Shown one piece after another: positions 2,962 through 46,300 of a stretch of 64,000 bases of DNA (its first letter is position 1; every line of letters starts with the position of its first letter). This DNA is from Wenjunlia vitaminophila DSM 41686 (GTDB lineage: Bacteria; Actinomycetota; Actinomycetes; Streptomycetales; Streptomycetaceae). The notes beneath the pieces are model-generated. The model did not search any database. It was not told where the DNA came from and worked only from the letters and a program-made list of their open reading frames with translations. The position numbers were made by a program, and so were the translations under genes. The stretch spans positions 1-64,000 of the forward strand of contig NZ_KB904650.1 of NCBI RefSeq assembly GCF_000380165.1, given 5' to 3'.

Positions 2962-4434
2962 TCAGGCCCCGAGCTGGAGGGCCATGCCCGCCGCCGCGGC
3001 CCGTTCGTGGAAGGCCCGGACGGCCGGGACGTCCCGGTAGGGCAGGAGTTGCCGGCCGAACTCGTAGACGTACTCGGTCGCCCTGGTGGACCGCATCTCC
3101 ACCGCCTCCCTGAGCGCCTGGGTGCCGACCGCGCACGCCTGTTCCACGTCGCCGAGGCCCAGCCGGGAGGAGGCGAGCACGGTGCGGCAGAACACCCGGC
3201 TGCGGGCGTACGCCGCGGGCCGGAGCTGGAGCGAGCGCTCGGCGTGGCGCACCGCGGCCCGGTACTGCTCCAGGTCGCGGTGGCAGTGCCCGAACTCGTC
3301 GGCGAGCTGGGCCTCGTCGAAGAAGCGCGCCCAGCCGGGCACCTCGTCGCCGGGGCGGGCGGTCTCCAGGGCCCGTTCCGCCCGCATCAGCGCGGAGGCG
3401 CAGGCTCGGGCGTCCCCGAGCAGTCCGTGTCCGCGCGCCTCGGCGGCGCACAGCAGCGCCTGCACGGCGTGCGGCGCGGCGGACCCGACGCCCTGCTGGG
3501 CGACCCGGGCCAGTTGCACCGCCTCCCGCCCGTGTCCGAGGTAGACGGCCTGACGGCTCATGGTGACCAGGACGTACCCGCCGTACACCCGGTCGCCCGC
3601 GGCCTGGGCGAGCCGCAGGGCCTGGACGAAGTACCGCTGGGCCAGGCCGTGCGCGCCCATGTCGTAGGAGGTCCACCCGGCGAGCCTGGTCAGGTCGGCC
3701 ACGGCACCGAACAGGGCCCTGCCCACGGCCTCGCCGTAGCTGCCGCGGAGCATGCCGTCCACCTCGTTCTCCAGGTACCGGACGAGGGCCTGCCGGGCGT
3801 GTCCGCCTCCGTAGGCGTTGTCCAGGGTGCGGAACAGGTCCCCGATCGCACGCAGCGCCGCGATGTCCCCGGAGGTCACCCGGGTCCCCCGGACCCGGTC
3901 GGCAGGTCGTGGGCGCTGCGGCGCCCCGTCCTGGCCGCCGCCCTGCGCCGGGATGCGCCCCCGGTTGACCGGGCGCGGCTCCCGGGCCACCCGCTCGTCG
4001 GGCCGGCCGATCAGCCAGTCCCGGCTCGGCACCACCAGGCCGGCGGGGGTGAACGCGATCCGGCGCAGCTCCGCGTGCGTCCCGGTGTCCTTGCGCCACA
4101 GCCCGCTGACGATGTCTATGGCCTCTTCTGGGCTCGCGGCGTACTCCAGGCCGGCGTAGACCGGGGCGCAGGCGTCGAGCCCGAGGTCCTGGGCGGTCAG
4201 GCGGCGGCCGAGGCGCCGGGTGAACACCTCGGCGATCAGCGCCGGGGTGGTGCCGCGCGGCTGCTGACCGCGCAGCCAGCGGGTTACGGAGGTCTTGTCG
4301 TAGCGCAGATCGAGTCCGTGCTCGATGCCGAGCTGGTCCACTCGTCTGGCCAGTCCCGCGTTGGAGAACCCCGCCTCGGCGATGAGCGCGGCGAGTTGGT
4401 GGTTCGGGGAACGCTGGGCGGATCGGTCGGTCAT
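2962..4434 (-). CDS. XRE-like transcriptional regulator with TPR-like C-terminal region
   Basis: This 490-residue protein begins MTDRSAQRSP. Its N-terminal ~75 residues contain a helix-turn-helix of the XRE class (AGLARRVDQLG ... TSVTRWLRGQQP). The rest is Ala/Leu/Arg-rich helical sequence with repeats such as GLAQRYFVQALRLA and YLGHGREAVQLARVA, like the tetratricopeptide sensory half of many Streptomyces regulators. It is clearly paralogous to the protein at 20386-21714, sharing the order HTH, GLAQRYxVxAL, then GHGR. It is divergent from lipB. Signal and targets are unknown. Such proteins in Streptomyces often control development or peptide signalling, which is inference here. Confidence 0.75.
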   Translation of the reverse strand: MTDRSAQRSPNHQLAALIAEAGFSNAGLARRVDQLGIEHGLDLRYDKTSVTRWLRGQQPRGTTPALIAEVFTRRLGRRLTAQDLGLDACAPVYAGLEYAASPEEAIDIVSGLWRKDTGTHAELRRIAFTPAGLVVPSRDWLIGRPDERVAREPRPVNRGRIPAQGGGQDGAPQRPRPADRVRGTRVTSGDIAALRAIGDLFRTLDNAYGGGHARQALVRYLENEVDGMLRGSYGEAVGRALFGAVADLTRLAGWTSYDMGAHGLAQRYFVQALRLAQAAGDRVYGGYVLVTMSRQAVYLGHGREAVQLARVAQQGVGSAAPHAVQALLCAAEARGHGLLGDARACASALMRAERALETARPGDEVPGWARFFDEAQLADEFGHCHRDLEQYRAAVRHAERSLQLRPAAYARSRVFCRTVLASSRLGLGDVEQACAVGTQALREAVEMRSTRATEYVYEFGRQLLPYRDVPAVRAFHERAAAAGMALQLGA

Positions 4435-25278: not shown

Positions 25279-26328
25279 ATGAAGACAGCCACCGCCCGTC
25301 CCCCCCGGGACGTCGCCGCCCCGACCGGGGCCGACCACCCACCGCCGCGGCGCACCGGCGCCTGGACCTGGCTCCGGCGGTCGTACCGCCGGTACTGGTA
25401 CGCCTGGGCGATGGTGCTGCCCGTGGTCGTCGTCCTCGGGGTGCTGGTGGGCTACCCGCTGGGCTGGGGCGTCTACCTGTCGTTCACCGACGCCAACGAG
25501 ATGAACGTCGCCAAGGACATCGGCGTCAACCACGTACCGGCCACCTACGACGTCATCGGCCTGGACAACTACTGGCACATCCTGTCCGGCGAGGAGGGCA
25601 ACTTCTACCCGCGGCTGTGGTGGACCGTGGTGTGGACCGTCTCCTGCGTCTTCTTCCACTACACCATCGGGCTCGGGCTCGCCCTGCTGCTCAACCGCAG
25701 GATGCGCTTCCGGGCGCTGTACCGGGTGCTGCTGATCCTGCCGTGGGCCGTCCCCGCGTTCGTCGCCGCGTTCTCCTGGCGACTGATGTTCAACAGCCAG
25801 TACGGGGTGTTCAACGCGATCCTGACCGACCTGGGCATGGACCCGGTGGACTGGCTCAACGGCCCCACCAGCCAGAAGGTAGCGGTGGTCATGGTCAACG
25901 TCTGGCTGGGCGTGCCCTTCATGATGGTGGCGCTGCTCGGCGGGTTGCAGTCCATCCCGAGTGAGCTGCACGAGGCCGCGGAGATGGACGGCGCGAGCGC
26001 CTGGCAGCGGTTCCGTCACGTCACCCTGCCCGGGCTGCGCCCGGTGAGCAGCACGGTGATCCTGCTCGGCACCATCTGGACGTTCAACATGTTCCCGATC
26101 ATCTTCCTGATGCTGGGTCAGGGGAACAGCGCGGACAGCGAGATCCTGGTGACCTACGCCTACCGGCTCGCGTTCGCCGGTGTCCGGGACTACGCCGGCG
26201 CCGCGACCTACGGCATCTGCATCCTGTCCATCCTGCTGGTCTTCTCGGTCTTCTACCGGAAGGCGATCAGCGACGAGTCCCCGGGGGGCCGCCCCAGGAC
26301 CACCAGGCGCCGGGAGGCCGTGCGATGA
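25279..26328 (+). CDS. malF: Maltose ABC transporter permease MalF
   Basis: A 349-residue inner-membrane permease with about six membrane helices; the first is WAMVLPVVVVLGVLVGYPLGWGVYLSF (about residues 45-71). The EAA loop that contacts the ATPase is visible as ELHEAAEMDGASAWQRFRHVTLPGLRP. A long periplasmic-side loop between helices 1 and 2 carries NEMNVAKDIGVNHVPATYDVIGLDNY. GAGAGG lies before ATG 25279. It overlaps malG by ATGA, indicating translational coupling and stoichiometric assembly. Confidence 0.94.
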   Translation: MKTATARPPRDVAAPTGADHPPPRRTGAWTWLRRSYRRYWYAWAMVLPVVVVLGVLVGYPLGWGVYLSFTDANEMNVAKDIGVNHVPATYDVIGLDNYWHILSGEEGNFYPRLWWTVVWTVSCVFFHYTIGLGLALLLNRRMRFRALYRVLLILPWAVPAFVAAFSWRLMFNSQYGVFNAILTDLGMDPVDWLNGPTSQKVAVVMVNVWLGVPFMMVALLGGLQSIPSELHEAAEMDGASAWQRFRHVTLPGLRPVSSTVILLGTIWTFNMFPIIFLMLGQGNSADSEILVTYAYRLAFAGVRDYAGAATYGICILSILLVFSVFYRKAISDESPGGRPRTTRRREAVR

Positions 26329-27227
26329 CCGCCACCGTGTCCACCCCCTCCGACCGGCGGAGCAGCGGCGCCGCCCCGGCCCCGGCACGGGTGCGCCGGC
26401 GCGGGCAGCGCAGCACCGCGGCGTCGGTCGCCCTGCACGCGACGCTGATCGGGGCCTGCCTGATCGCGGTCTTCCCGGTGCTGTTCATCTTCTTCATCTC
26501 GCTGAAGGACCGGAACGGCTGGCAGGACCCGACCGGGGTGTCCGGCGGCCTCGGCCTGGACAACTACCGGCACGTGCTGAGCGAGACGGAGTTCCCGCGC
26601 TGGTTCGCCAACTCGGTGATCGTCGCCTGCGGCACCATGGTGGTCGGCGTGTTCATCGCGGCCAGCGCCGGCTACGCCATCTCCCGCATGGCCTTCCCCG
26701 GGCGGCGTCCGCTCATGTGGACCTTCCTGGTCACCCAGATGTTCCCGGTCGCGGTGCTGATCGTGCCGCTCTACAACATCCTGGGCGACCTGGGGCAGCT
26801 CAACACGTACACCGGCCTCGTCATCAGCTACTGCTCGGTCTCGGTGCCGTTCTGCGCCTGGATGCTCAAGGGCTACTTCGACACCATCCCGGTGGACATC
26901 GACGAGGCCGGGCGGGTGGACGGGCTCACCCCGTTCGGCGTCTTCTACCGGCTGGTGCTGCCGCTGGCCCGGCCCGGTCTCGCGGTCACCGCCTTCTACA
27001 CCTTCCTCACCGCCTGGGGCGAGGTCGCCTTCGCCCGGGCGTTCATGAACAGCGAGGACATGGCGACGCTCTCCGCCGGCCTCGGCACGTTCGTCGGCCA
27101 GCACAAGCAGGAGTGGGGGCTGATGACCGCCGCCTCCATCATGATCACCGTTCCGGCCGGCCTGGTCTTCTTCTTCGCCCAGAAGCACCTGGTCTCCGGC
27201 CTGACCGCGGGTGGGACCAAGGGTTGA
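26325..27227 (+). CDS. malG: Maltose ABC transporter permease MalG
   Basis: A 300-residue permease with six predicted helices after an Arg-rich N-terminal tail. The EAA motif is DIDEAGRVDGLTPFGVFYRLVLPLARPGLAV. WFANSVIVACGTMVVGVFIAASAGYAISRM is the typical MalG helix pair, and LITGVLP-like ends are replaced by LVFFFAQKHLVSGLTAGGTKG, the usual permease C-terminus. It overlaps malF (ATGA at 26325-26328) and is followed 72 bases later by the alpha-glucosidase gene. Confidence 0.94.
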   Translation: MTATVSTPSDRRSSGAAPAPARVRRRGQRSTAASVALHATLIGACLIAVFPVLFIFFISLKDRNGWQDPTGVSGGLGLDNYRHVLSETEFPRWFANSVIVACGTMVVGVFIAASAGYAISRMAFPGRRPLMWTFLVTQMFPVAVLIVPLYNILGDLGQLNTYTGLVISYCSVSVPFCAWMLKGYFDTIPVDIDEAGRVDGLTPFGVFYRLVLPLARPGLAVTAFYTFLTAWGEVAFARAFMNSEDMATLSAGLGTFVGQHKQEWGLMTAASIMITVPAGLVFFFAQKHLVSGLTAGGTKG

Positions 27228-27298
27228 CCCCTCCCGCGTGCCCCCGGGTCGCCCTCCCGCGGCCCACCGCCCCCACGAACCCCAGCGAAGGAATCCCG

Positions 27299-28921
27299 AT
27301 GACCCAGGACCTCGCCCGTTCCGTCCGCGACGACCCCGCCGAGGACCCCGCCGAGGACCCCACCCGCTGGTGGCGCAGCGCCGTCATCTACCAGGTGTAC
27401 GTGCGGTCGTTCGCGGACTCCGACGGCGACGGCGTCGGCGACCTGCGCGGCGTCACCAGCCGACTCCCCTACCTGGCGGAGCTCGGCGTGGACGCGGTGT
27501 GGCTGACCCCGTTCTACGCCTCGCCGCAGGCCGACGGCGGGTACGACGTGGCGGACTACCGGGCGGTGGACCCGCTGTTCGGTGACCTGTCCGACGCCGA
27601 CGACCTGGTGCGGCAGGCCCACGCGCGGGGGCTGCGGGTGATCGTGGACGTGGTGCCCAACCACACCTCGGACCGGCACGCCTGGTTCGTGGAGGCGGTG
27701 GCGGCCGGCCCGGGCTCCCCGGCCCGGGAGCGCTACCACTTCCGTCCCGGCCGGGGAACGGGTGGCGAGCTGCCGCCCAACGACTGGGAGTCGGTGTTCG
27801 GCGGCCCGGCCTGGACCCGCCTCGACGACGGGGAGTGGTACCTGCACCTGTTCGACCCCCGGCAGCCGGACCTGAACTGGGAGAACCCGGAGGTGGCGGC
27901 GGAGTTCGAGTCGATCCTGCGGTTCTGGCTGGAGCTGGGGGTGGACGGCTTCCGGATCGACGTGGCGCACGGCATGGTCAAGGCGGCGGGGCTGCCGGAC
28001 ATCGGGCGCAGGGAGCAGGTCAAGCTGATCGGCGCGCAGACCCTGCCGTTCTTCGACCAGGACGGGGTGCACGAGATCCACCGTTCCTGGCGCCGGCTGC
28101 TGGACCGCTACCCGGGTGAGCGGATCGCGGTCGCCGAGGCGTGGGCGCCGAACCAGCAGCGGCTCGCCCGGTACGTCCGCCCCGACGAACTGCACCAGGC
28201 GTTCAACTTCCACTACCTGAACACCCCGTGGTCGGCGCCGGAACTGCGGGCGGTGATCGACGAGTCGGTGGCGGCGACCCGCGAGGTGGGCGCGCCCAGC
28301 ACCTGGGTGCTGTCCAACCACGACGTGCAGCGGCACGTCACCCGGTTCGGCGGGGGGAAGCGCGGGCTGCGGCGGGCACGGGCGGCGGCGCTGCTGATGT
28401 TGGCGCTGCCCGGCTCGGCGTACGTGTACCAGGGGGAGGAGCTGGGGCTGCCCGAGGTGCTCGACCTGCCGGACGAGGTGCGGCAGGACCCGTCGTTCTT
28501 CCGGGACAACGGGCAGGACGGGCTGCGGGACGGCTGTCGGGTGCCGCTGCCGTGGTCCGGCACCCAGCCACCGTTCGGTTTCGGTCCCGGCACCAGTTGG
28601 CTGCCGCAGCCGGCGGACTGGCGGGACCTGACGGCGGAGGCTCAGGGCGGCGACCCGCGGTCCACGCTGGAGCTGTACCGCTCGGCGCTGCGGCTGCGGC
28701 GGGAGCTGCCCGGCCTCGGTGACGGGGAGATGACCTGGCTGGACGCGCCGGAGGGGGTGCTGGCGTTCACCCGCCCGGGGTTCGTGCTGACCGCGAACAC
28801 CGGCGAGCGGGAGGTGGAACTGCCGGTGCCGGGGCGTCCGGTGCTCGGGACGGCGGCGGTGGAGTTCACCGGCGGGCGGGTACGGCTGCCCGGGGACTGC
28901 TGCGTGTGGTGGGTGGTCTGA
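27299..28921 (+). CDS. aglA: Intracellular alpha-glucosidase, GH13
   Basis: A 540-residue cytosolic oligo-alpha-glucosidase that would release glucose from imported maltooligosaccharides. No signal peptide is present. GH13 motifs in order: VIVDVVPNHTSD, GFRIDVAHG (nucleophile Asp), IAVAEAWAPN (acid/base Glu), VLSNHDVQRH (third Asp). The N-terminus WWRSAVIYQVYVRSFADSDGDGVGDLRGV is typical of the oligo-1,6-glucosidase/alpha-glucosidase subfamily. AAGGAAT precedes ATG 27299. Its place after malG matches the aglA position of actinomycete maltose operons. Confidence 0.93.
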   Translation: MTQDLARSVRDDPAEDPAEDPTRWWRSAVIYQVYVRSFADSDGDGVGDLRGVTSRLPYLAELGVDAVWLTPFYASPQADGGYDVADYRAVDPLFGDLSDADDLVRQAHARGLRVIVDVVPNHTSDRHAWFVEAVAAGPGSPARERYHFRPGRGTGGELPPNDWESVFGGPAWTRLDDGEWYLHLFDPRQPDLNWENPEVAAEFESILRFWLELGVDGFRIDVAHGMVKAAGLPDIGRREQVKLIGAQTLPFFDQDGVHEIHRSWRRLLDRYPGERIAVAEAWAPNQQRLARYVRPDELHQAFNFHYLNTPWSAPELRAVIDESVAATREVGAPSTWVLSNHDVQRHVTRFGGGKRGLRRARAAALLMLALPGSAYVYQGEELGLPEVLDLPDEVRQDPSFFRDNGQDGLRDGCRVPLPWSGTQPPFGFGPGTSWLPQPADWRDLTAEAQGGDPRSTLELYRSALRLRRELPGLGDGEMTWLDAPEGVLAFTRPGFVLTANTGEREVELPVPGRPVLGTAAVEFTGGRVRLPGDCCVWWVV

Positions 28922-29117
28922 GGTGCGCAGCGCACCGGCACGGAACCCGCCGGGTCCCGGCCCTGGTCCCGTGCCCCGGGTGCACGGACCGGTACCGCAC
29001 GGTGTGTCGGCGGCGCCGTTCTACCCTGTGGCGACCAGACCGTTTTTGCTGCCCTGCTCCGCAGGCGTCCGCTTCCTCCCCGCCCGCAGGCGGAGGCATC
29101 CACGCAAGGAGATTCCG

Positions 29118-30143
29118 ATGAACGCACGGCTCGCTGACATAGCGGCCCAGGCCGGGGTCAGCGAGGCCACGGTGTCCCGGGTGCTCAACGGCAAGCCGGG
29201 GGTCTCCTCCACCACCCGCCAGTCGGTGCTGACCGCACTGGACCTGCTGGGCTACGAACGGCCGGTGCGGCTGCGGCAGCGCAGTGCCGGGCTGGTGGGC
29301 CTGGTCACCCCGGAGCTGGAAAACCCGATCTTCCCCCTGTTCGCCCAGGTGATCGGTCAGGCGCTGACCCGCCAGGGGTACACCCCGGTGCTGTGCACGC
29401 AGTCCGCGGGCGGCTCCACCGAGGACGAGCTGACCGAGATGCTGGTGGACCGGGGGGTCGCGGGGATCATCTTCCTGTCCGGTCTGCACGCCGACACCAC
29501 CGCGGACACCGCGCGCTATGACCGGCTGATCGGACAGGGCGTGCCGTTCGTCCTGGTCAACGGGTTCAGCGAGCGGGTGGCGGCGCCGTTCGTCTCGCCG
29601 GACGACCGGGCGGCCGTCCGGCTGTCGGTGACCCACCTGGCCGCGCTGGGCCACCGGCGGATCGGTCTGGCCGTGGGGCCGAGGCGTTTCGTGCCGGTGT
29701 TGCGCAAGATCGAGGGTTTCCTCGACGCCGTGGACGACGTCCTGGGGATGCCCCGCGACGAGGCGGAGACGTTGATCCAGCATTCGCTGTTCACTCTTGA
29801 GGGTGGGCAGGCGGCGGCGTCGGCGTTGCTCGACGACGGGTGCACCGCGGTCGTGTGCGCCAGCGACCTGATGGCCCTGGGGGCGATCAGGGCGGCGCGG
29901 CAGCGGGGCCTGGCGGTGCCGCGGGACGTCTCGGTGGTGGGGTTCGACGACTCCCCGTTGATCGCCTTCACCGACCCTCCGCTCACCACCGTCCGGCAGC
30001 CCGTGACGGCCATGGGGCAGGCGGCCGTGCGGGTCCTGCTGGAAGAGGTGGCCGGGACCCCGGCCCCGCACGGCGAGTTCGTGTTCCTTCCCGAGTTGGT
30101 GGTCCGCGGCTCCACCGCGTCCGTGCGCGGCGAGGCACGGTAG
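29118..30143 (+). CDS. malR: LacI family maltose regulator MalR
   Basis: A 341-residue LacI-type repressor. The N-terminal helix-turn-helix and hinge read LADIAAQAGVSEATVSRVLNGKPGVSSTTR. The effector domain has LVGLVTPELENPIFPLFAQVIGQAL and the C-terminal VVGFDDSPLIAFTDPPLTTVRQPVTAMGQAAV. AAGGAGATT precedes ATG 29118. A TACCCT -10 candidate near 29022-29027 suggests its own promoter. In S. coelicolor malR lies beside malE; here it is at the far end, after aglA. It probably binds the CTTGCAAG-type sites between amylase and malE. Confidence 0.88.
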   Translation: MNARLADIAAQAGVSEATVSRVLNGKPGVSSTTRQSVLTALDLLGYERPVRLRQRSAGLVGLVTPELENPIFPLFAQVIGQALTRQGYTPVLCTQSAGGSTEDELTEMLVDRGVAGIIFLSGLHADTTADTARYDRLIGQGVPFVLVNGFSERVAAPFVSPDDRAAVRLSVTHLAALGHRRIGLAVGPRRFVPVLRKIEGFLDAVDDVLGMPRDEAETLIQHSLFTLEGGQAAASALLDDGCTAVVCASDLMALGAIRAARQRGLAVPRDVSVVGFDDSPLIAFTDPPLTTVRQPVTAMGQAAVRVLLEEVAGTPAPHGEFVFLPELVVRGSTASVRGEAR

Positions 30144-35882: not shown

Positions 35883-37633
35883 TGCCCCAACTACGTCTCG
35901 CCCTGAACCAGATCGACAGCACCGTCGGCGACCTCGTGACCAACAGCGAGGCGATCCTGCGCTGGACCCGCCACGCCGCGGACGGCGGCGCCCATCTGGT
36001 GGCCTTCCCCGAGATGGCGCTGACCGGCTACCCGGTGGAGGACCTGGCGCTGCGCCCGTCCTTCGTCTCCGCGTCCCGCGCCGCACTGGAGGCCCTCGCC
36101 GCGCGGCTGCACGCGGAGGGCCTCGGCGAGATCCCCGTCGTGGTGGGCTACCTGGACCGCAGCGAGAAGGCCAAGCCCCGCTACGGCCAGCCGGCCGGCG
36201 CCCCGCTGAACGCCGCCGCGGTGCTGCACCAGGGCGGGGTGGTGCTGCGGTTCGCCAAGCACCACCTGCCCAACTACGGCGTCTTCGACGAGTACCGGTA
36301 CTTCACCCCCGGGGACACCCAGCCGGTGATCCGGGTGCACGGGGTGGACGTGGCCCTCGCCATCTGCGAGGACCTGTGGCAGGAGGGCGGCCGGGTGCCG
36401 GCCACCCGCGCGGTCAACGCCGGGCTGCTGATCTCCCTCAACGCCAGCCCGTACGAGCTGAACAAGCACGACACCCGCCTGGAGCTGGTCCGCAAGCGGG
36501 CCCAGGAGGCCGGGTGCACCCTGGCCTACGTGGCCATGATCGGCGGTCAGGACGAGCTGGTCTTCGACGGCGACTCGATCGTGGTGGACCCGGCGGGGGA
36601 GGTCCTGGCCCGCGCCCCGCAGTTCGAGGAGGGCTGCGTCCTGCTCGACCTGGACCTGCCCGCGGCGGGGCCCGCCCCGCGGGGCACCGCGGACGACGGC
36701 CTGGAGATCGAGCACGTGATCCTGTCCGCCGAGCCGCTGCCACGCTACGAGTCCCGCGTCCTCGGAGGCCAGGCGGACCGGCTCGGGGACGACGAGGAGG
36801 TGTACACCGCGCTGGTCATCGGGCTGCGGGCCTACATCGCCAAGAACGGCTTCCGCACGGTGCTGCTCGGCCTGTCCGGCGGCATCGACTCGGCGCTCAG
36901 CGCGGCCATCGCCTGCGACGCGCTCGGCTCGGAGCACGTGTACGGCGTGTCCATGCCGTCCACCTACTCCTCGGAACACTCGGTCAGCGACGCCGCCGAC
37001 CTGGCCCGCCGCACCGGCCTCAACTACCGCACCGTTCCCATAGCGCCGATGGTGGACGCCTACATGGCCTCCCTGCGCCTCACCGGACTCGCCGAGGAGA
37101 ACCTCCAGGCCCGGGTCCGGGGCACCACCCTGATGGGCATCTCCAACCAGGAGGGCCACCTGGTCCTGGCCACCGGCAACAAGTCCGAGCTGGCCTGCGG
37201 CTACTCCACCCTCTACGGCGACGCCGTCGGCGCCTTCGCGCCGATCAAGGACGTGCCCAAGACCTCGGTCTTCCGGCTGGCCCGGTGGCGCAACGAGGCC
37301 GCCGCACAGCGCGGCGAGACCCCGCCGATCCCGGAGAACTCCATCACCAAGCCGCCGAGCGCCGAGCTGCGGCCCGGCCAATTGGACACCGACTCGCTGC
37401 CGGAGTACGCACTCCTCGACCAGGTGCTCGACCTCTACGTGGAGCAGGACCTGGGCCGCGCCCAGATCATCGCCCGGGGCCTGGACCCAGCACTGGTGGA
37501 CCGCATCCTGCGTCTGGTGGACACCGCGGAGTACAAGCGCAGGCAGTACCCGCCGGGCACCAAGATCTCCCTCAAGGCCTTCGGCCGCGACCGCCGCCTC
37601 CCCATCACCAACCGCTGGCGCGAACACGCCTGA
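35882..37633 (+). CDS. nadE: Glutamine-dependent NAD+ synthetase
   Basis: A 583-residue two-domain enzyme catalysing the last step of NAD synthesis. The N-terminal nitrilase-type amidase domain (residues 1-~275) shows the Glu/Lys/Cys triad: Glu in AFPEMALTGY, Lys in FAKHHLPNYGVFDEYRYF, Cys in LAICEDLWQ. Ammonia passes to the C-terminal synthetase domain with the PP-loop LSGGIDSALSAA. GVSMPSTYSSEHS and ATGNKSELACGYSTLYGD are synthetase motifs. The GTG start fits a leaderless transcript. Its last 29 bases overlap the beta-lactamase gene on the opposite strand. Confidence 0.96.
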   Translation: MPQLRLALNQIDSTVGDLVTNSEAILRWTRHAADGGAHLVAFPEMALTGYPVEDLALRPSFVSASRAALEALAARLHAEGLGEIPVVVGYLDRSEKAKPRYGQPAGAPLNAAAVLHQGGVVLRFAKHHLPNYGVFDEYRYFTPGDTQPVIRVHGVDVALAICEDLWQEGGRVPATRAVNAGLLISLNASPYELNKHDTRLELVRKRAQEAGCTLAYVAMIGGQDELVFDGDSIVVDPAGEVLARAPQFEEGCVLLDLDLPAAGPAPRGTADDGLEIEHVILSAEPLPRYESRVLGGQADRLGDDEEVYTALVIGLRAYIAKNGFRTVLLGLSGGIDSALSAAIACDALGSEHVYGVSMPSTYSSEHSVSDAADLARRTGLNYRTVPIAPMVDAYMASLRLTGLAEENLQARVRGTTLMGISNQEGHLVLATGNKSELACGYSTLYGDAVGAFAPIKDVPKTSVFRLARWRNEAAAQRGETPPIPENSITKPPSAELRPGQLDTDSLPEYALLDQVLDLYVEQDLGRAQIIARGLDPALVDRILRLVDTAEYKRRQYPPGTKISLKAFGRDRRLPITNRWREHA

Positions 37634-38597
37634 CCCGCCCCCACCCGGACGGCCCAACGTCCAGGAAGGCCGCGGCACCTCGGGTCAGCGCGGTCGCCAC
37701 TACGGTGGCCGCCCTCGCGATCACGGGCTCGTCCGCCGCCGCGTCGGCGTCACGTGTGGCGGACAACATGGCCATCACGACCGGTCCGCCGCCGGGCGGC
37801 CAGGCGACCCCGACGTCGTGGGTGGTGCCGTAGCCGCCGGTGCCGGTCTTCTCCGCGACGGTCCAGCCCCGGGGCAGCCCCGCACGCAGGCGCCCGCCAC
37901 CGGTCGTGTTGCCCAGCAGCCAGCCGGCGAGCAGTTCCCGGTCGCCGGGGTCCAGGGCCTTCCCGACCACGAGCCGCGCGTAGGTCCTCCCGATGGCCTC
38001 GGGACTGGTGGTGTCGGTCACGCGTCCCGGCTCCGCCGAGTTCAGTTCCGGCTCCCACCGGTCGAGCCGCGTCACGTCGTCCCCGACGGAGCGGCAGAAC
38101 GCCGTGACGGCCGCCGGTCCGCCGAGCTGTTCCAGCAGGAGGTTGGCGGCGGCGTTGTCGCTGTGGGAGACCGCCGCACCGCACAGGCGCCCGACGCTCA
38201 TCCCCGCGGCGAGGTTCCCGGGAAGACCGGTGAGGGGCGCGTGGCCCGCCCTCTCGACGTCCCGGCTCGTGTAACGGACGACCCTCGGGAGGAACGTCCC
38301 GTCGCGGTCGAGGTCCCGCAGGACCGCCGCCACGGCCACCGTCTTGAACACCGAACACATCGGGAACAGCTCATCGCCGCGATGGGCGACCCGCCTCCCC
38401 GTCGTGGTGTTCCACCCGAACGCCCCGAGCCGGACCCCGTGCTCCCGCTCCAGGACACGCAACCTCCGCGCCGCCCCACCGCTCCCCCGGCCGGAGGCGA
38501 GGGCGGCCGGAACCCCGGACGCGGCGACCAGGCCGGCCCCGAGACCGCCGGCGAGCACGGCGCGCCGGGACGGACACCCGCTCGTGCCCGATCCCAT
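37605..38597 (-). CDS. Class A beta-lactamase with Tat-type signal
   Basis: A 330-residue exported serine hydrolase that should open beta-lactam rings. The signal begins GCPSRRAVLAGGLGAGLVAA, a twin-arginine pattern. All class A motifs are present: Ser-x-x-Lys in CSVFK, SDN in SHSDNAAAN, Glu in EPELN (omega loop), and KTG in EKTGTGGYG. The last ~25 residues extend past the usual end and run into the nadE 3' end. GAGGTGAGG precedes ATG 38597. It begins seven bases after the stop of the phosphatase gene, so the two are one operon. Confidence 0.92.
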   Translation of the reverse strand: MGSGTSGCPSRRAVLAGGLGAGLVAASGVPAALASGRGSGGAARRLRVLEREHGVRLGAFGWNTTTGRRVAHRGDELFPMCSVFKTVAVAAVLRDLDRDGTFLPRVVRYTSRDVERAGHAPLTGLPGNLAAGMSVGRLCGAAVSHSDNAAANLLLEQLGGPAAVTAFCRSVGDDVTRLDRWEPELNSAEPGRVTDTTSPEAIGRTYARLVVGKALDPGDRELLAGWLLGNTTGGGRLRAGLPRGWTVAEKTGTGGYGTTHDVGVAWPPGGGPVVMAMLSATRDADAAADEPVIARAATVVATALTRGAAAFLDVGPSGWGRVRRVRASGW

Positions 38598-39951: not shown

Positions 39952-42873
39952 TCAGGAGACGAGTGTGACGAGCTGCACGCCGCTGTACGCCGGCACTCCG
40001 TCCCGGGTGACGACCGCACGGAGGGTCACCCAGCCCTTCCCGCCGCCGCGGTTCGGCGCGAGCCACACGCTTCCGTCGGCATCGGTCTCCAGGTGTGCCA
40101 GTGACTCGCCGTCGAGCTCCCAGGTGATCTCCGCGCCGGTAAGGTCGGTGTCCGTGCCGTCCCAGGCGGCGAGGGTGAGCGCGGAACGGGAGGTGCCGCC
40201 GGCGGGCAGCTCGGCCGGCGTGGCGGTGAGCCTCAGGTCGGGACGGATCACGTCGGACCGGTATCCGGCCAGGTCCGCCGGGCACCACGCGATCTCGGGC
40301 ACGAACCGGCCGTCCGCCCAGCGAGCGAGGTACCCCGGCTGGTGGTGGGCGTCGTCGATCAGCGCGTACGTCGGCACCCCCTTCACGCTGGCGACGAAGC
40401 CGTGCGGCGCGACGGTCACCGTGCCGAGGGCGCCGGGCAGCGGCAGCGCGCGCGGCTGGAGGTCGTGGCTGGCGACGATCTCCACGCCCCCGTCGAACGT
40501 CGTCCGCGACACCCTGAGGTCCGCGGTCAGGTACCGGAACGCCGTCATCGCCCGCCCGAAGTACCGGCTGGCGACCCGCCGTTGGACCAGCGAGAGGCCC
40601 TTGAGCAGCTCGAAGCCGCGCCCCGTCTGGAAGTCGCGTTCCGTGTGCTGGGCCTGGTAGTGCATGTTGAGGCCGAACGCCAGCGCCCAGCTCAGGTTCT
40701 CGGTGGTGTCGATGCCGCGGTCGAGGTTGTGCGGGTAGAACGCGACCTTGTCGTGCATCACCGCGGTGCCCAGCGGCCACTGCTGGACGACGACGCCGTT
40801 GCGGTTGGGGTTGTCGTAGGTGTCGGTGCGGTCGCGCTGCATCGTGTTGAGGTAGAAGCCGAGGCTCGACGTCAGGTCCTGGAAGATCCGGTCACCGCCG
40901 ACCCCCTCGGTGCCGATCGGGAGGATCGCCGCGGACTGCGCGGTCTGCTCCACCAGCTCCTCGCAGTACGCGTACGGCGGTGCCCCGAAGTCGGCGGAGT
41001 GGTCGTACTCCCGGCGCGCGATCTCGTCCTGGAACATCATGTCCAGGCCGTAGGTGTCGCGGAAGGTGCGGAGCTGGTCGAGGATCAGCGCCCGGGGCTT
41101 GGCCCGCCAGCCCCCGATGAGGTACCCGAGGTTGTTGGTGTGGGTCTTGGTGACCAGGTTGCCCCGCGCGTCGCGGATGCCGATCCGCTCCACGCCGCCG
41201 AGCGCCACCACCGCCTGGCTGTCCGGGTGCCACCAGGTGGGGTTGGTGTAGGCGCTGGCGTAGTTCCCCCGGGCGTGGATGGTGTCGATGAGCCGCTGGA
41301 ACTGCGCCGGCCCGCCGAGGTAGTCGAAGGTGAGGAAGTCCGGGTAGTGGTGGTCGTGCTGGCCGTCGGCGTAGTAGCTGGCGAGTTCGACGCTGTACGG
41401 CCCGCCGGGCACGGCGCGCAGGTAGTCGAACGCCACCGCCGGCTGGCCGGTCGCTGACGTGCCGCCGGTCGGCTGCCACAGGTCCACCTTGAGGTGCACC
41501 GACGTGGCCAGCCCGGTCCGCAACCGGGGATCGAGCTTGTCGGCGAGGGCGCGCCAGGTGTTCATCCCGTTGTCGGTCCGGTACCCCGCGAACAGGTCGA
41601 ACGCGCTCCCGCCCGCCGCCAGCCGGGTCGCCGGGAGCCCGCCGGACCGGTCGGGGCCGATCCAGACGTCCACCCGGTGCGTCAGGCCGGTCAGGGCCTC
41701 GTCGCGCGCCCGGGCGCCGACGAAGCCGAACTGCGTCGGGCGGTAGGGCTTCACGGTGGCGGGCTGCACCGAGTACACGCCGAGCGCCGAGTCGTCCTCC
41801 TCGAACAGGATCAGGTCGTGGGTCGCCGTCGGCATGCCGTAGTTGGCGTAGAAGCCGCCGGCGAGCAACGTCTTGGTGTGGGCGATCCCGCCCCACTTCG
41901 GCGCGATGCCCAGCATGGTGCCGGCCTCCGGGATGGTCCGGTACGCCACCTCCGGGTAGGTGATGCGGGAGATCGGCCGGGACCACAGGTTCCGCACGGT
42001 CTTCGGGTGCAGTTCGAGGCACCCCTCCCGGAGCCGGACCGCCATGTCGACGGTGAAGAACCCGGGGACGGCGTAGCTGACCTCGGCCTCGTCGGCCGCC
42101 ATCCGGGTGACGGTGACCGTGGCCTCGTCGCAGAAGACGCCGGTGCCGTTGTCGTAGTACACCGCCAGCGGCAGCACCCCGGGGGACTGCACCCGGCCGC
42201 GGCACGTCCAGTCGAGCAGCCGGCCCCGCCCGTCGATCAGGACCCGGTCCTCGCCCCGGGTCAGTTCCAGCGCGCCGGCCCGGCTCCAGGTGGCCACCGG
42301 GCCACCGTCACCGACGACCTCGATGGCGTCGACGTCGAGGACCAACGGCTCGGGTGACTGCTTGTCGTCGGGGAAGAACACGAGCACGAGTCGGCGCAGC
42401 GGGTACGTGACCCGACCGTCGCCCTTCCCGCTCCAGGTCATCCGGGACAGCCGCTGCGGCTCGAAGGTGACCCTGGTCCGCCCGTCGAAACCGGTGGGGT
42501 CGATCCGGCTGGCCAGGGTGCCCCACTCCTCGTTGTCCTGGTCGAAGAGCTTGAGCCAGAGGTTGCCCTTCTTCGGCGTGACGCCGGTGAGCCACACCGA
42601 CACCCGGGCGAGGTGCGGCTGGTACGGGCTGGGGAACGCCACCGAGAACTCGCTGTACTTGCCCGTCATGGTGACCCGGGCCTGTCCGGCGGTGCCGGTG
42701 GCGGCGAGTGTGGTGTTGTACACGCTGGTCGGCGGCAGGTCGTTGGGCACGCCGTCGATGACGAGGCGCACGGTCGGTCCGGTGTCCGCCGCGGCCGGCT
42801 GGGCGGCGAGGAGGGGCCCGGCCACGGCAACAGCGGAGGCAGTGGTTCCGGTGATGAAGGCACGGCGCTTCAT
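39952..42873 (-). CDS. Secreted DUF6259-like putative glycoside hydrolase
   Basis: A 973-residue exported protein starting MKRRAFITGTTASAVAVAGPLLAAQPAAA, a twin-arginine signal. An N-terminal beta-sandwich (about residues 30-185, with VSVWLTGVTPKKGNLWLKLFDQDNEEWG and LVLDVDAIEVVGD) is followed by a sugar-hydrolase-like super-domain and a barrel region. That region contains FDYLGGPAQFQRLIDTIHARGNYASAYTNPTWWHPDS, DMMFQDEIARREYDHSADFG and AILPIGTEGVGGDRIFQ, where Asp and Glu residues could be catalytic. The C-terminus is Ig-like. It resembles DUF6259 proteins; the substrate is unknown. A double LacI-type operator lies upstream. Confidence 0.75.
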   Translation of the reverse strand: MKRRAFITGTTASAVAVAGPLLAAQPAAADTGPTVRLVIDGVPNDLPPTSVYNTTLAATGTAGQARVTMTGKYSEFSVAFPSPYQPHLARVSVWLTGVTPKKGNLWLKLFDQDNEEWGTLASRIDPTGFDGRTRVTFEPQRLSRMTWSGKGDGRVTYPLRRLVLVFFPDDKQSPEPLVLDVDAIEVVGDGGPVATWSRAGALELTRGEDRVLIDGRGRLLDWTCRGRVQSPGVLPLAVYYDNGTGVFCDEATVTVTRMAADEAEVSYAVPGFFTVDMAVRLREGCLELHPKTVRNLWSRPISRITYPEVAYRTIPEAGTMLGIAPKWGGIAHTKTLLAGGFYANYGMPTATHDLILFEEDDSALGVYSVQPATVKPYRPTQFGFVGARARDEALTGLTHRVDVWIGPDRSGGLPATRLAAGGSAFDLFAGYRTDNGMNTWRALADKLDPRLRTGLATSVHLKVDLWQPTGGTSATGQPAVAFDYLRAVPGGPYSVELASYYADGQHDHHYPDFLTFDYLGGPAQFQRLIDTIHARGNYASAYTNPTWWHPDSQAVVALGGVERIGIRDARGNLVTKTHTNNLGYLIGGWRAKPRALILDQLRTFRDTYGLDMMFQDEIARREYDHSADFGAPPYAYCEELVEQTAQSAAILPIGTEGVGGDRIFQDLTSSLGFYLNTMQRDRTDTYDNPNRNGVVVQQWPLGTAVMHDKVAFYPHNLDRGIDTTENLSWALAFGLNMHYQAQHTERDFQTGRGFELLKGLSLVQRRVASRYFGRAMTAFRYLTADLRVSRTTFDGGVEIVASHDLQPRALPLPGALGTVTVAPHGFVASVKGVPTYALIDDAHHQPGYLARWADGRFVPEIAWCPADLAGYRSDVIRPDLRLTATPAELPAGGTSRSALTLAAWDGTDTDLTGAEITWELDGESLAHLETDADGSVWLAPNRGGGKGWVTLRAVVTRDGVPAYSGVQLVTLVS

Positions 42874-42902
42874 GAGCACGCTCCGGCATCGTCGAGGATA
42901 GA

Positions 42903-42924
42903 AAGCGCTTGCTTGCAAGCGCTT
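42903..42924. promoter_or_regulatory. Double LacI-type operator of the DUF6259-like gene
   Basis: AAGCGCTTGC (42903-42912), two T, then GCAAGCGCTT (42915-42924) form a perfect dyad. Each arm also contains the self-palindrome AAGCGCTT (42903-42910 and 42917-42924), so two overlapping LacI/cre-like sites lie 14 bases apart. They are about 30-52 bases upstream of the start codon. Confidence 0.7.
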
Positions 42925-43045
42925 GCACAGTAGGAGCCCAAGGCGAAACACGTCAACGCCTCTGTCCGAACTCCCTGTCGGCGGGCCGGCCAACAAAAGG
43001 GCGCGTGCCCGGCGACCGACGTCGCCGGGCACGCGCCCCGGTGGT

Positions 43046-45880
43046 TCAGCGGAAGGTGGCCGCCAGCGCGTCGAGCGCCTTCACCAACTCCGCACTCGCC
43101 CTGCCCTTTCGTGCCGCGTCGTCGAGCTGCACGATGACCGCGCGGTTCGACGCGGGCGACTCGGCGAGGCGCTGTGCCTGCGCGATGTGCTGCCGGACCT
43201 GTTTCGCGGCGGAGCTCGTGAGCTCCCCCACGGTCTCGGCACGGTCGACGTGCCAGGAGACGTTGGCGAACCCCACACCCACCGGCTCGAAGGCGATGGT
43301 GTAGGTCTGCCCCTCGGTCGTGTCGAACGAGATCTTGTCCGAGCCGTTGGCCTTCGCGGCCACGAGGTTGCCGTCCGCGTCCTTCACCACCGTCCGCGCG
43401 ATACCCGGGTACTCACCGACGAACGTGCCGCCGTTGCGAGCCGTAACCCGGAACTCCGTGGCTGCGCCGTCTGCCCACTCCATGCCCAGGACGAAGTTCC
43501 CGCGCGCGACGAGGCCGTCGACGTTCCCGTCCTTCCACGCACTGGGGAGTGCCGGGAGGAACTGGGTGTAGCCGAGCTGGCTCTGCACGAGCATCTCGGT
43601 CATGCCCGCGGTCAGCCCGAAGTTGCCATCGATCTGGAACGGCGGGTGGGAGTCCAGCAGGTTGTCCATCAGGCCGTTCCGGTTCCCGGCGAGCATCGCG
43701 CGCACCATGGAGTAGGTGTCCTCGGCACGGCCGGTCCTGGCGTACATGTTGATCTTCATGGCCTTGGACCAACCCGTGCCGTTGAGGCTGCGCTGCTCGA
43801 GCGACTTGATGGCGGCGTCCATCCACTCGGGCGTGTCCTTGCTGATCAGCGTGCCGGGGAAGAGCCCGACGAGCTGCGACGTGTGGCGGTGCACAGAGCC
43901 CTGGTTGGCGCTGCCACCGGCACCGAAGTTCCAGATGCCCACCTCGGGGAGATCGCCGGCCTGGGCCTTGCCGAGGCTGGTCTCCTCGAACCACTCCTTC
44001 ACCTGACCCTGCTCCCCGATCAGGATCGGGTCGAGCTGCGACTGCTTGTCCTGCCACACCGCGCGCAGGTCCGCGTCGACCCCGAGCTTCTCGGAGGCCT
44101 CGATCGCCATGCGGTAGAGCTCCCACACCAGGGACTGGTCGTACGTGGTTCCGACGGCTGTCGGGCCCTGCTCGGCCGAGACGCCCGGCGCCACGGTGAG
44201 TCGCTTCTGGTACGGGCTGTACCAGAGGTACTCGTCCCAGAACGCGGCCATCTCCTTGAGCATGGGGTACGCGGTGTCGCGCAGGAACGTCTCGTCGCCG
44301 GTGAAGAGGTAGTAGTCGTAGAGGTTCTGCATCACCCACGACGATCCGCCGATGTTCCAGCCGTACTCCTGCGAACCGATCGGCGCGGTGTGCCCGAACG
44401 GGTTCACCTGGGTGTTGATGAGGAATCCCTTGCCGGTCCCGAGCGGCGCGCTGGCGAAGTCCTCGGTCTTCACCGCCGCGGACCGCTCAGCCGTCAGTCG
44501 GCCCGGAACCACGAGCGACTTGACGAACTCGTTGAACGGCACCTGGGTCTCGGCGAGGTTGGTGATCATCGCCGGCCAGTAGTTCATCTGGACGTTGACG
44601 TTGAAGTGGTAGTCCGCTCCCCAGAAGGCGCCCGCACTGCCGATCATCCACAGACCGCAGAGGTTGGTGGGGAGGTCGCCGTCCCGCGAACCGGCGATGC
44701 TGAGGTAGCGACCGAACTGGTACGCCATCTGGTCGACCGCGAGATCGTGCGATCCCGTGCGGTAGTTCCTCATGAGCTGATCGGTGGGGATGTCGGGCAC
44801 GGTCGCGCCCACGTCGAACTTCACACGCGAGAAGAGCTCCTGGTAGTCGGCCAGGTGCCTGTCGCGCAGGGCGCCGTATCCGCTGGCGATGGCGGAGTCC
44901 ACGCGTTGCGTGATCTTGTCGTGCGGGTCCTCGCCCCGGTACGTCGGGTAGTCGTTCTTGTAGTTCGTGCCCGTCGAGTAGACGAGCGTGACGGTGTCGG
45001 CGGCGTTGACCGTCAGCGTGCGGCCGTCGCTGCTCGAGACGGTTCCGCCCTCGTTCTGCAGCTTGAGCTGCATCTCGGCCCGCATCTGGTTGTCGTTCAC
45101 CTGGCCGGCGAGGGTGATCCGCTTCTCGTTCGGATCCGCGGTGGCGGTGGTGGTCAGTCCGCTCGCCGCCGCCGTCGACGTCGTGAAGGTGAGCTTGCCT
45201 GGTTCGGAGGCGCTCAGGCGCACCACGGCGACCTGGTCCGGATAGCTCACGAAGTACTCACGCCGGTAGTGCACGCCGTCGTGGTCGAATTCCACCGTCG
45301 AGACGGCGGTGCTCATGTCCAGGTCGCGAACGTAGTTCGACGCAGTCGCGTCGGTGATGCCGGTGGCGCCGAAGTCCAGGTAGAGGTCACCGAAGTCCTG
45401 GTACATGCCCATTCCACCGGTGTTGCCGAACATCAGGCTGGTGAGCTGCTGGTTGGCGCCGCCGACGCCGGTGGGCGGGAGGCCGAAGACGTTGGTGGAC
45501 TTGTTGTCGAGAGCGAGGCGGTAGTCGTTCAGTTGCTGAGGCGTGATCGCTGTTGCCTTGTTGCCACCGAGGTAGGTACGCCCCTGAGCGGGTCCTCCTC
45601 TCCACAGCGTCTTCTCGTTGAAGTGGAGGCGGTCCCGACCGGGGTTACCGAACGCCATCAGGCCAGTGGTGCCGTTGCCCTGCACCAGCGCCTGGTTCTC
45701 CCAGTCGGACACCGGGTTGGTGTACCACATACGCAGGGGGTTTCCCTTTGGGTCCGCGACGTGCGCGGTGGTTTCCGTCTGGTCGAGGGGCGCCCCGAGA
45801 GCGCCGGGGGCCGCGATGGCGGACGCCAGCAAGGGCAGCACCACCAGCGCTCTGAGAGCGAGGACGAATCTACTTCGCAT
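43046..45880 (-). CDS. Secreted GH95 alpha-L-fucosidase/galactosidase
   Basis: A 944-residue exported protein with a Sec signal (about residues 5-32, ending GALGA). The GH95 order is visible: N-terminal beta domain LRMWYTNPVSDWENQALVQGNGTTGLMAFG and LHFNEKTLWRGG, then the (alpha/alpha)6 barrel with DLPTNLCGLWMIG, AFWGADYHFNVNVQMNYWPA, YDQSLVWELYRMAIEA and LNGTGWSKAMKINMYARTG, and C-terminal DGNFGLTAGMTEMLVQSQ. GH95 enzymes cut alpha-1,2-fucose or galactose from glycans. A helical tail of about 55 residues follows. ATG 45880 or 45886 may be the start. Base composition is visibly less GC-rich than the neighbours, suggesting transfer. Confidence 0.9.
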   Translation of the reverse strand: MRSRFVLALRALVVLPLLASAIAAPGALGAPLDQTETTAHVADPKGNPLRMWYTNPVSDWENQALVQGNGTTGLMAFGNPGRDRLHFNEKTLWRGGPAQGRTYLGGNKATAITPQQLNDYRLALDNKSTNVFGLPPTGVGGANQQLTSLMFGNTGGMGMYQDFGDLYLDFGATGITDATASNYVRDLDMSTAVSTVEFDHDGVHYRREYFVSYPDQVAVVRLSASEPGKLTFTTSTAAASGLTTTATADPNEKRITLAGQVNDNQMRAEMQLKLQNEGGTVSSSDGRTLTVNAADTVTLVYSTGTNYKNDYPTYRGEDPHDKITQRVDSAIASGYGALRDRHLADYQELFSRVKFDVGATVPDIPTDQLMRNYRTGSHDLAVDQMAYQFGRYLSIAGSRDGDLPTNLCGLWMIGSAGAFWGADYHFNVNVQMNYWPAMITNLAETQVPFNEFVKSLVVPGRLTAERSAAVKTEDFASAPLGTGKGFLINTQVNPFGHTAPIGSQEYGWNIGGSSWVMQNLYDYYLFTGDETFLRDTAYPMLKEMAAFWDEYLWYSPYQKRLTVAPGVSAEQGPTAVGTTYDQSLVWELYRMAIEASEKLGVDADLRAVWQDKQSQLDPILIGEQGQVKEWFEETSLGKAQAGDLPEVGIWNFGAGGSANQGSVHRHTSQLVGLFPGTLISKDTPEWMDAAIKSLEQRSLNGTGWSKAMKINMYARTGRAEDTYSMVRAMLAGNRNGLMDNLLDSHPPFQIDGNFGLTAGMTEMLVQSQLGYTQFLPALPSAWKDGNVDGLVARGNFVLGMEWADGAATEFRVTARNGGTFVGEYPGIARTVVKDADGNLVAAKANGSDKISFDTTEGQTYTIAFEPVGVGFANVSWHVDRAETVGELTSSAAKQVRQHIAQAQRLAESPASNRAVIVQLDDAARKGRASAELVKALDALAATFR

Positions 45881-45886
45881 GTTCAT

Positions 45887-46300
45887 GTTGGCTTCTATCG
45901 GAGTGGCGATCACGGGATGACCGACGTGCTCGGCCCCGGTGGGCCGGAGCGACGGCCCCGCCACCTCCGGGACCGCCCGACCCGTTCGAGCGGGCACTGG
46001 CAGCGCCTGGCACTGCCTTCCCCTCACGTGGTCTCGTCGTTGAGCGACGGGGATCTGGGGACATAGAGATCGGGTGAATTACGTGGCCGGCTGGCGACTT
46101 GGATCAGGAGTATGCACCTCCAGAGGAGGGCAGTCAACGAATCTGCGGCGGTGGGCCGACCAGAGATCCGATGTGTGTGGTTGTCGGCGAACCTGGAAAG
46201 CTCCCCGACGGCGGGCGGCGGGCGGCGGGCGGGGAGGGCGAGGCTCTCCGGTCCCGTGATCCCGACCAGCGCGTCCGGTGGTCCGCCACGCCGCCGGACG
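45887..46300. other. Intergenic region between GH95 and exporter genes
   Basis: No supported gene in 414 bases. It contains a direct repeat GGCACTG (45993-45999 and 46009-46015, 16-base period), and a short GC-rich tandem (GGCGGGC x3 at 46210-46230). The AT-richer part around 46060-46120 could hold the GH95 promoter. Confidence 0.4.

Follow-up and report, generated by a model that had tools for sequence, protein, structure and literature searches.

A secreted DUF6259-like putative glycoside hydrolase gene of Wenjunlia vitaminophila and its apparent hand-over between two LacI regulons

Results

The stretch of DNA analysed here (the window) comprises 64,000 nucleotides of Wenjunlia vitaminophila DSM 41686 (contig NZ_KB904650.1, positions 1 to 64,000) and carries, on its minus strand at 39952..42873 (stop codon included), a gene for a secreted DUF6259-like putative glycoside hydrolase (GH) of 973 aa, referred to below as P0001. 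The open reading frame begins with ATG at 42873 and stops at 39952, and its N-terminus, MKRRAFITG, contains what we take to be a twin-arginine motif, followed by a hydrophobic stretch. The signal region of the twin-arginine translocation (Tat) type was read from the sequence as residues 1-29 (42787..42873, minus strand), and export is predicted from that reading. The 973-residue Tat-type protein announced in a preliminary description of the locus is therefore confirmed.

Two copies of the palindromic core AAGCGCTT lie just upstream of the start codon, 29 and 43 bases from it. The start-proximal copy, operator 2, occupies 42903..42910 and reads AGGATAGAAAGCGCTTGC on the plus strand with its flanks; operator 1, at 42917..42924, lies inside a 12-base perfect palindrome, GCAAGCGCTTGC. 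The preliminary description was right in placing two palindromes there, and wrong in calling them overlapping, given that the 8-base cores are 6 bases apart (14 centre to centre) and it takes operators of 18-20 bp around each core to produce an overlap. The core occurs exactly twice in the window, compared with a shuffle mean of 0.20, and 3 of 100 shuffles contained at least two copies. An alignment of this promoter with those of five homologues leads us to propose, by eye, a -10 element TACTGT at 42927..42932 (TACGGT in the five homologues), and a -35 element TTGACG at 42951..42956, both on the minus strand. The latter is within TTGACGTGTTTC, the counterpart of the homologues' operator.

The N-terminal third of P0001 is predicted to form two beta-sandwiches. 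Residues 40-192 (42298..42756, minus strand; AlphaFold2 predicted local distance difference test, pLDDT, 34-83 per ten-residue block) resemble a carbohydrate-binding module (CBM), superposing with CBM86 (Z 10.9), CBM28 (10.1) and CBM27 (about 10) in VIA-align. Residues 198-310 (41944..42282, minus strand; pLDDT mostly 44-77) superpose with a domain of the GH101 enzyme EngBF (6qev Z 9.2, 2zxq 8.7, 6qep 8.6), over 103-123 residues of a middling-confidence model. In EngBF the barrel comes after the supersandwich, and a putative barrel is likewise next in P0001, although identity is only 15-18% and no GH101 sequence-family match is listed for the protein. For both domains a sandwich fold seems fairly safe, and the exact family is uncertain because unrelated sandwiches reach near-equal scores, a virus turret giving Z 10.8. 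The fold search covered about residues 36-310, and families absent from the fold list may still apply.

The only family-level match in the central region is DUF6259 (PF19773), on which a putative catalytic (beta/alpha) barrel is placed at about residues 425-801 (40471..41601, minus strand; limits by eye). The match reached 17.1 bits (E 0.003) with the whole protein, 18.9 bits (E 0.00087; residues 500-619, profile positions 84-203) with the isolated barrel piece, and 19.9 bits in the genome search (profile positions 77-203, Asp616 included). The curated Pfam cut-off is 28.7 bits, and the alignment spans under half of the model's 300 positions. P0001 is thus DUF6259-like, as the preliminary description had it, without being a member of the family. 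All six members of an alignment of the P0001 family (A2), P0001 included, match DUF6259 at E ≤ 1, the best at 2.8e-4. Near the C-terminus, residues 880-936 (40066..40236, minus strand) resemble an immunoglobulin-like (Ig-like) Big_1 domain, with E 0.002 in the whole protein and 0.00012 in the isolated piece, below the Pfam cut-off.

Two acidic residues of the putative barrel are candidates for catalysis, Asp616 (MMFQDE; 41026..41028, minus strand) as nucleophile and Glu656 (IGTEG; 40906..40908, minus strand) as acid/base. Both belong to the 35 acidic residues at 415-800 that are invariant in six aligned members, P0001 included, an invariance that is a weak sign since the family members are 81-83% identical. 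Two control proteins give meaning to the weak DUF6259 match. L139 (535-2865, same phylum) is a true GH31 protein (PF01055 E 5.5e-44) and also exceeds the PF19773 cut-off (E 4.9e-8), which indicates that PF19773 overlaps the GH31 barrel family. Asp616 falls at about DUF6259 column 200, as does the Asp of the GH31 WMADY motif of L139, and Asp690 of the DUF6259 protein L138 falls at column 201, these positions being estimated by gap-free counting from the alignment ends. Glu656 stands 40 residues past Asp616, and Glu736 of L138 (TEEAP) stands 46 past its Asp. L138 shows a weak likeness to the GH66 dextranase 3vmn (E 0.016; GH66 model E 0.074), whereas P0001 had no listed match to GH31, GH66 or GH101 models, either as a whole (E ≤ 1) or as three pieces (E ≤ 10), HMMER filters dropping most matches above about 0.1. 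The roles of the corresponding residues in GH31, GH66 and GH101 catalysis serve as background here; the literature searched gave no usable description of the GH66 catalytic residues.

Proteins of this type are rare. A scan of genome contigs with short patterns, which miss distant copies, returned five loci, namely four complete copies from Streptomyces, 80-82% identical in their best segments, and a fragment from Streptosporangium, and one relative was present in 72,556 plasmid records. The phylum, class, order and family genome samples overlap. Besides its own genome, P0001 has a relative in one other (G128) among 293 genomes of the order, and likewise among 394 of the family; no relatives were found in other genomes among 396 of the phylum, and a profile search found no other genome among 296 of the class. 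Viral contigs gave 103 pattern matches, none of them a relative. The six homologues compared below are four from Streptomyces (L005-L008), one from a plasmid of Streptomyces sp. NBC_01237 (L012) and the one of G128 (L011), which belongs to the same family.

The genome holds 37 AAGCGCTT places and 25 LacI-domain matches. The preliminary description had proposed a search for the cognate LacI gene and its other targets, and all 35 places outside the window were taken, with nearby genes assigned by a simple gene caller. One of the 35 is operator-like and adjoins a LacI gene. This site, C25:72690, lies on contig C25 between the LacI gene and a divergent operon of Gfo/Idh/MocA, DUF993 and xylose-isomerase-like genes (Pfam). 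The LacI protein encoded there has 350 aa (L067:2836-3885). Enrichment of CAAGCGCTTG with one mismatch was also considered and rejected (122 places, compared with 380 for the reversed word).

DUF993 was then searched in 61 genomes of the family, 45 of which matched, and 30 loci were examined, one per genome and 29 of them foreign. AAGCGCTT is upstream in 27 of these 30 loci. The Gfo/Idh/MocA gene is present in 28, its product being 71-100% identical to that of C25 (the own locus counting as 100%), and in 27 of the 28 loci with both genes the core lies 53-204 bases before it, several times in two copies. Two loci, L098 and L100, were rejected as counterexamples, given that they have no Gfo/Idh/MocA gene and hence represent a different DUF993 locus. 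They apparently form a second DUF993 context with no upstream AAGCGCTT; L098 comes from a genome in the window's own genus.

A symmetrical 24-base matrix was built from 36 sites of 26 foreign DUF993 loci, whose own scores range from 12.0 to 32.1. The C25 site scores 29.4, the start-proximal site of P0001 27.5 and operator 1 12.2, and none of the other 34 places exceeds 18.4. Because the training sites were selected by the AAGCGCTT core, only the flanks are independent evidence. By its score the start-proximal site ranks with the targets of the DUF993-operon LacI, and binding by that protein is predicted. It shares its sequence class with the operators of that operon, although the target here is a secreted-enzyme gene on another contig and none of the six P0001 homologues has a AAGCGCTT in its upstream region. 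The cognate regulator is probably the LacI encoded beside the C25 operon, a result that supports the LacI-type carbohydrate control suggested earlier for this gene. The third-best AAGCGCTT site (18.4) is at position 3001 of locus L072 (G000:C32:51909), where the simple caller placed no gene.

The homologues appear to answer to other regulators. Each of the six has at least two sites resembling TTRACGCGTYAA with up to 2 mismatches, and in all six one pair is 45 bases apart, the downstream site including TTGACG at the proposed -35 element. Exact TTRACGCGTYAA matches in five homologue genomes number ten, of which three are at the P0001-type gene, six in the gap between a LacI gene and a GntR-hybrid gene, and one elsewhere. 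Because places with one mismatch, counted in as well, show no excess over the reversed word, the argument rests on this location. The hybrid is a GntR-type regulator with a LacI-like sugar domain. Around the gap, all six clusters examined (L133-L137 and the plasmid stretch L151) share a six-gene core of GH38 alpha-mannosidase, polysaccharide deacetylase, Gfo/Idh/MocA, flavin adenine dinucleotide (FAD) oxidoreductase, GntR hybrid and LacI, with proteins 79-100% identical to those of L134 (L133 for the FAD enzyme). Four clusters (L133-L135 and L137) also encode, within the fetched stretch, an enolase-superfamily protein, a 2-hydroxyacid dehydrogenase and DUF6807 (Pfam), and in L151 the core is followed by an acetyl xylan esterase and an ATP-binding cassette (ABC) solute-binding protein. 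The cluster deacetylase occurs in one of the 72,556 plasmid records, the same record that has the P0001 relative. In that record, NZ_CP108509.1 (L012, L151), a linear replicon of 1.6 Mb, gene and cluster are about 110 kb apart; in three of the other homologue genomes a single contig holds both, at a distance of about 120-380 kb, and in two they lie on different contigs.

The genome of W. vitaminophila keeps this six-gene core on contig C94, with 64-81% identity (LacI 75%, Gfo/Idh/MocA 75%, FAD enzyme 71%, deacetylase 65%, GntR hybrid 64%, and GH38 81% over the first 375 residues, at which point the end of the contig cuts it off). The regulator gap on C94 has three TTRACGCGTYAA-like sites with 1-2 mismatches. 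No such site, with 2 mismatches allowed, occurs in the window, and the best word upstream of P0001, TTGACGTGTTTC, differs from TTRACGCGTYAA at 3 positions, hence by its upstream sequence the gene does not count among the targets of the LacI/GntR-hybrid pair of the GH38 cluster. When the P0001 promoter is aligned with those of five homologues, the -35 region and the bases leading up to the start codon correspond, and the AAGCGCTT pair follows the -10 element, in a stretch where the alignment contains a 12-base insertion. Between the C25 LacI and the cluster LacI, identity is 39-40%. On the simplest reading, control of the gene apparently shifted to the C25 LacI from the regulators of the GH38 cluster, with the promoter retained. 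The direction of the switch is read from six relatives against one, and may have been the reverse. The 14-base spacing of the two cores might reflect a tandem duplication, which is speculation.

Besides C94, contigs C25, C18 and C19 of this genome (G000; L147-L150) also carry GH38 genes, 71-81% identical to that of G128 and cut at contig ends. The truncation at four contig ends perhaps marks an assembly break in similar paralogues; at the C94 end, a transposase-associated-like fragment was noticed by eye.

The Streptosporangium fragment is a broken gene copy in Streptosporangium amethystogenes NRRL B-2639 (L009:7921-9325), in which a Tat-like start is joined to the later half. It is without most of the N-terminal half and, through an internal loss, without the Asp616 stretch, and its reading frame shifts. 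Behind it, on the opposite strand, are a DHDPS-family gene and a deacetylase, the latter 50% identical to that of the GH38 cluster. An oligogalacturonate-lyase-like fragment (E 4.8e-7, just under the cut-off) is nearby.

Discussion

We lean, with modest confidence, towards the view that P0001 is a Tat-exported glycoside hydrolase of a wide group with GH31/GH66/GH101-like barrels, repressed by the C25 LacI after a hand-over between regulons. The enzyme would combine a (beta/alpha) barrel with a CBM-like sandwich and a GH101-like beta domain ahead of it and with a C-terminal sandwich and an Ig-like domain behind it, and would cut an external polysaccharide after export through Tat, by a retaining mechanism with Asp616 as nucleophile and Glu656 as acid/base. 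The C25 LacI would bind immediately behind the -10 element, at one site or at both, thereby blocking initiation, and would be released by a sugar inducer from the Gfo/Idh/MocA-DUF993-isomerase pathway. In the relatives, the pair of LacI and GntR hybrid would act through the site in the -35 region and the site 45 bases upstream. In this genome, we infer, sites of the GH38-cluster type decayed and C25-type sites took over.

Several results weigh against this view. As to the enzyme, every Pfam match of P0001 is below its cut-off, PDB sequence and profile searches with P0001 gave chance-level rows only, and comparing profiles gave no significant likeness to either the DUF6259 protein L138 (E 0.23) or the GH31 protein L139 (E 0.36; Neff 1.2). 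The structure prediction of the central barrel that the preliminary description had called for was run, and the barrel is poor in both AlphaFold models, with a mean pLDDT of 42.7 for the whole protein and 36.9 for residues 412-865, probably because only five close sequences were used (the G128 homologue was excluded from both); the model is usable for the N-terminal third only. As to the regulator, AAGCGCTT is not over-represented in the genome, its 37 places comparing with 41 for the reversed word, and among the relatives TTRACGCGTYAA, one mismatch allowed, is not over-represented either (41 places, 46 reversed). One of the 28 true operon loci, L110, has no AAGCGCTT, only 3 DUF993 loci of the 30 (own included) showed part of a divergent LacI, as most fetched flanks stop short of it, and operator 1 scores at the bottom of the range of a matrix whose sites were picked for the exact core. 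A consensus promoter scanner gave no promoter upstream of P0001.

It is unlikely, though worth weighing, that the enzyme is read correctly and its regulator is another LacI, such as the one encoded in the window at 28923-30143 (LacI domain in the genome domain search), the likeness to the DUF993 operator being a family resemblance. The genome offers 25 LacI-domain matches to choose from, and, according to a published study (PMC4052901), LacI operators are for the most part palindromes of even length that have CG at the centre. That study also describes how LacI proteins control carbohydrate genes and how their motifs and regulons have changed in evolution, and gives tcAAAGCGCTTTga as the motif of AglR in another group. 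Of the 35 outside places, however, just one, next to the C25 LacI gene, reaches the upper range of scores, and the flanks of the P0001 site fit the DUF993 class.

We give equally little credence to P0001 being a non-catalytic carbohydrate-binding or surface protein on a degenerate GH scaffold. This would agree with the lack of a family model at cut-off, with the predicted sandwich and Ig-like domains, and with a barrel that could not be modelled. Against it, the gene has operators in common with catabolic operons, and Asp616 and Glu656 are invariant, weak as this sign is among such close sequences. P0001 is likely a glycoside hydrolase, and one that probably resembles no well-characterised enzyme closely.

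The preliminary description had left the choice between a new glycoside hydrolase and a lyase. The first half agrees with the GH-like architecture, namely the CBM-like and GH101-like domains and the column of Asp616, and the second is unsupported. Secretion, LacI-type control and the lyase-like fragment near the broken Streptosporangium copy might suit a polysaccharide lyase, but no lyase family matched P0001 in Pfam searches of the whole protein and pieces, and its second domain is like that of GH101, which makes this reading most improbable. Just as implausible is the notion that the operators are chance palindromes with no function, for although the genome holds no excess of AAGCGCTT over the reversed word, two adjacent copies follow the proposed -10 element and the flank score of one is equalled at a single one of the 35 other places, beside a LacI gene.

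If the favoured account of a C25-repressed glycoside hydrolase is true, a rare and uncharacterised enzyme type would be tied to two defined regulons, narrowing the candidate substrates and naming the repressor. It would also provide a tractable case of operator turnover between two coexisting LacI paralogues, with the other version of the promoter preserved in relatives. The best lead to the substrate, and no more than a lead, is a mannose-containing, perhaps acetylated glycan, because an alpha-mannosidase and a deacetylase adjoin the relatives' regulators and the plasmid cluster adds an esterase. A bolder proposal, which we hold to be rather doubtful, is that P0001 founds an undescribed GH family acting on an acetylated mannose-containing polysaccharide, and that its gene was naturally handed from one repressor to a paralogue, with the promoter kept, the old -35 operator decayed, a new one placed after the -10 element and both repressors persisting. 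In the literature searched, we found no paper naming DUF6259 or DUF993 and none on LacI with alpha-mannosidase in Streptomyces.

Other features of the window

The gene upstream of P0001 is of the GH95 family (43046..45895, minus strand; Pfam) and lies outside the proposed regulon. It is followed by an intrinsic terminator-like hairpin of 19 pairs (42998..43039, minus strand), and the P0001 gene is treated as its own transcription unit because this hairpin separates the two. A single operon with the GH95 gene was considered and rejected on the grounds of the hairpin and of the lack of a GH95 match in seven homologue loci (tblastn, E 1e-20).

Two genes downstream of P0001, a beta-lactamase-family protein is encoded at 37605-38597 on the minus strand (Pfam Beta-lactamase2, E 2.2e-42). 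Further away, a separate sugar locus at 25279-30143 was recognised by eye, with sugar ABC permeases (25279 and 26325), an alpha-amylase-family-like frame and the LacI gene of the window.

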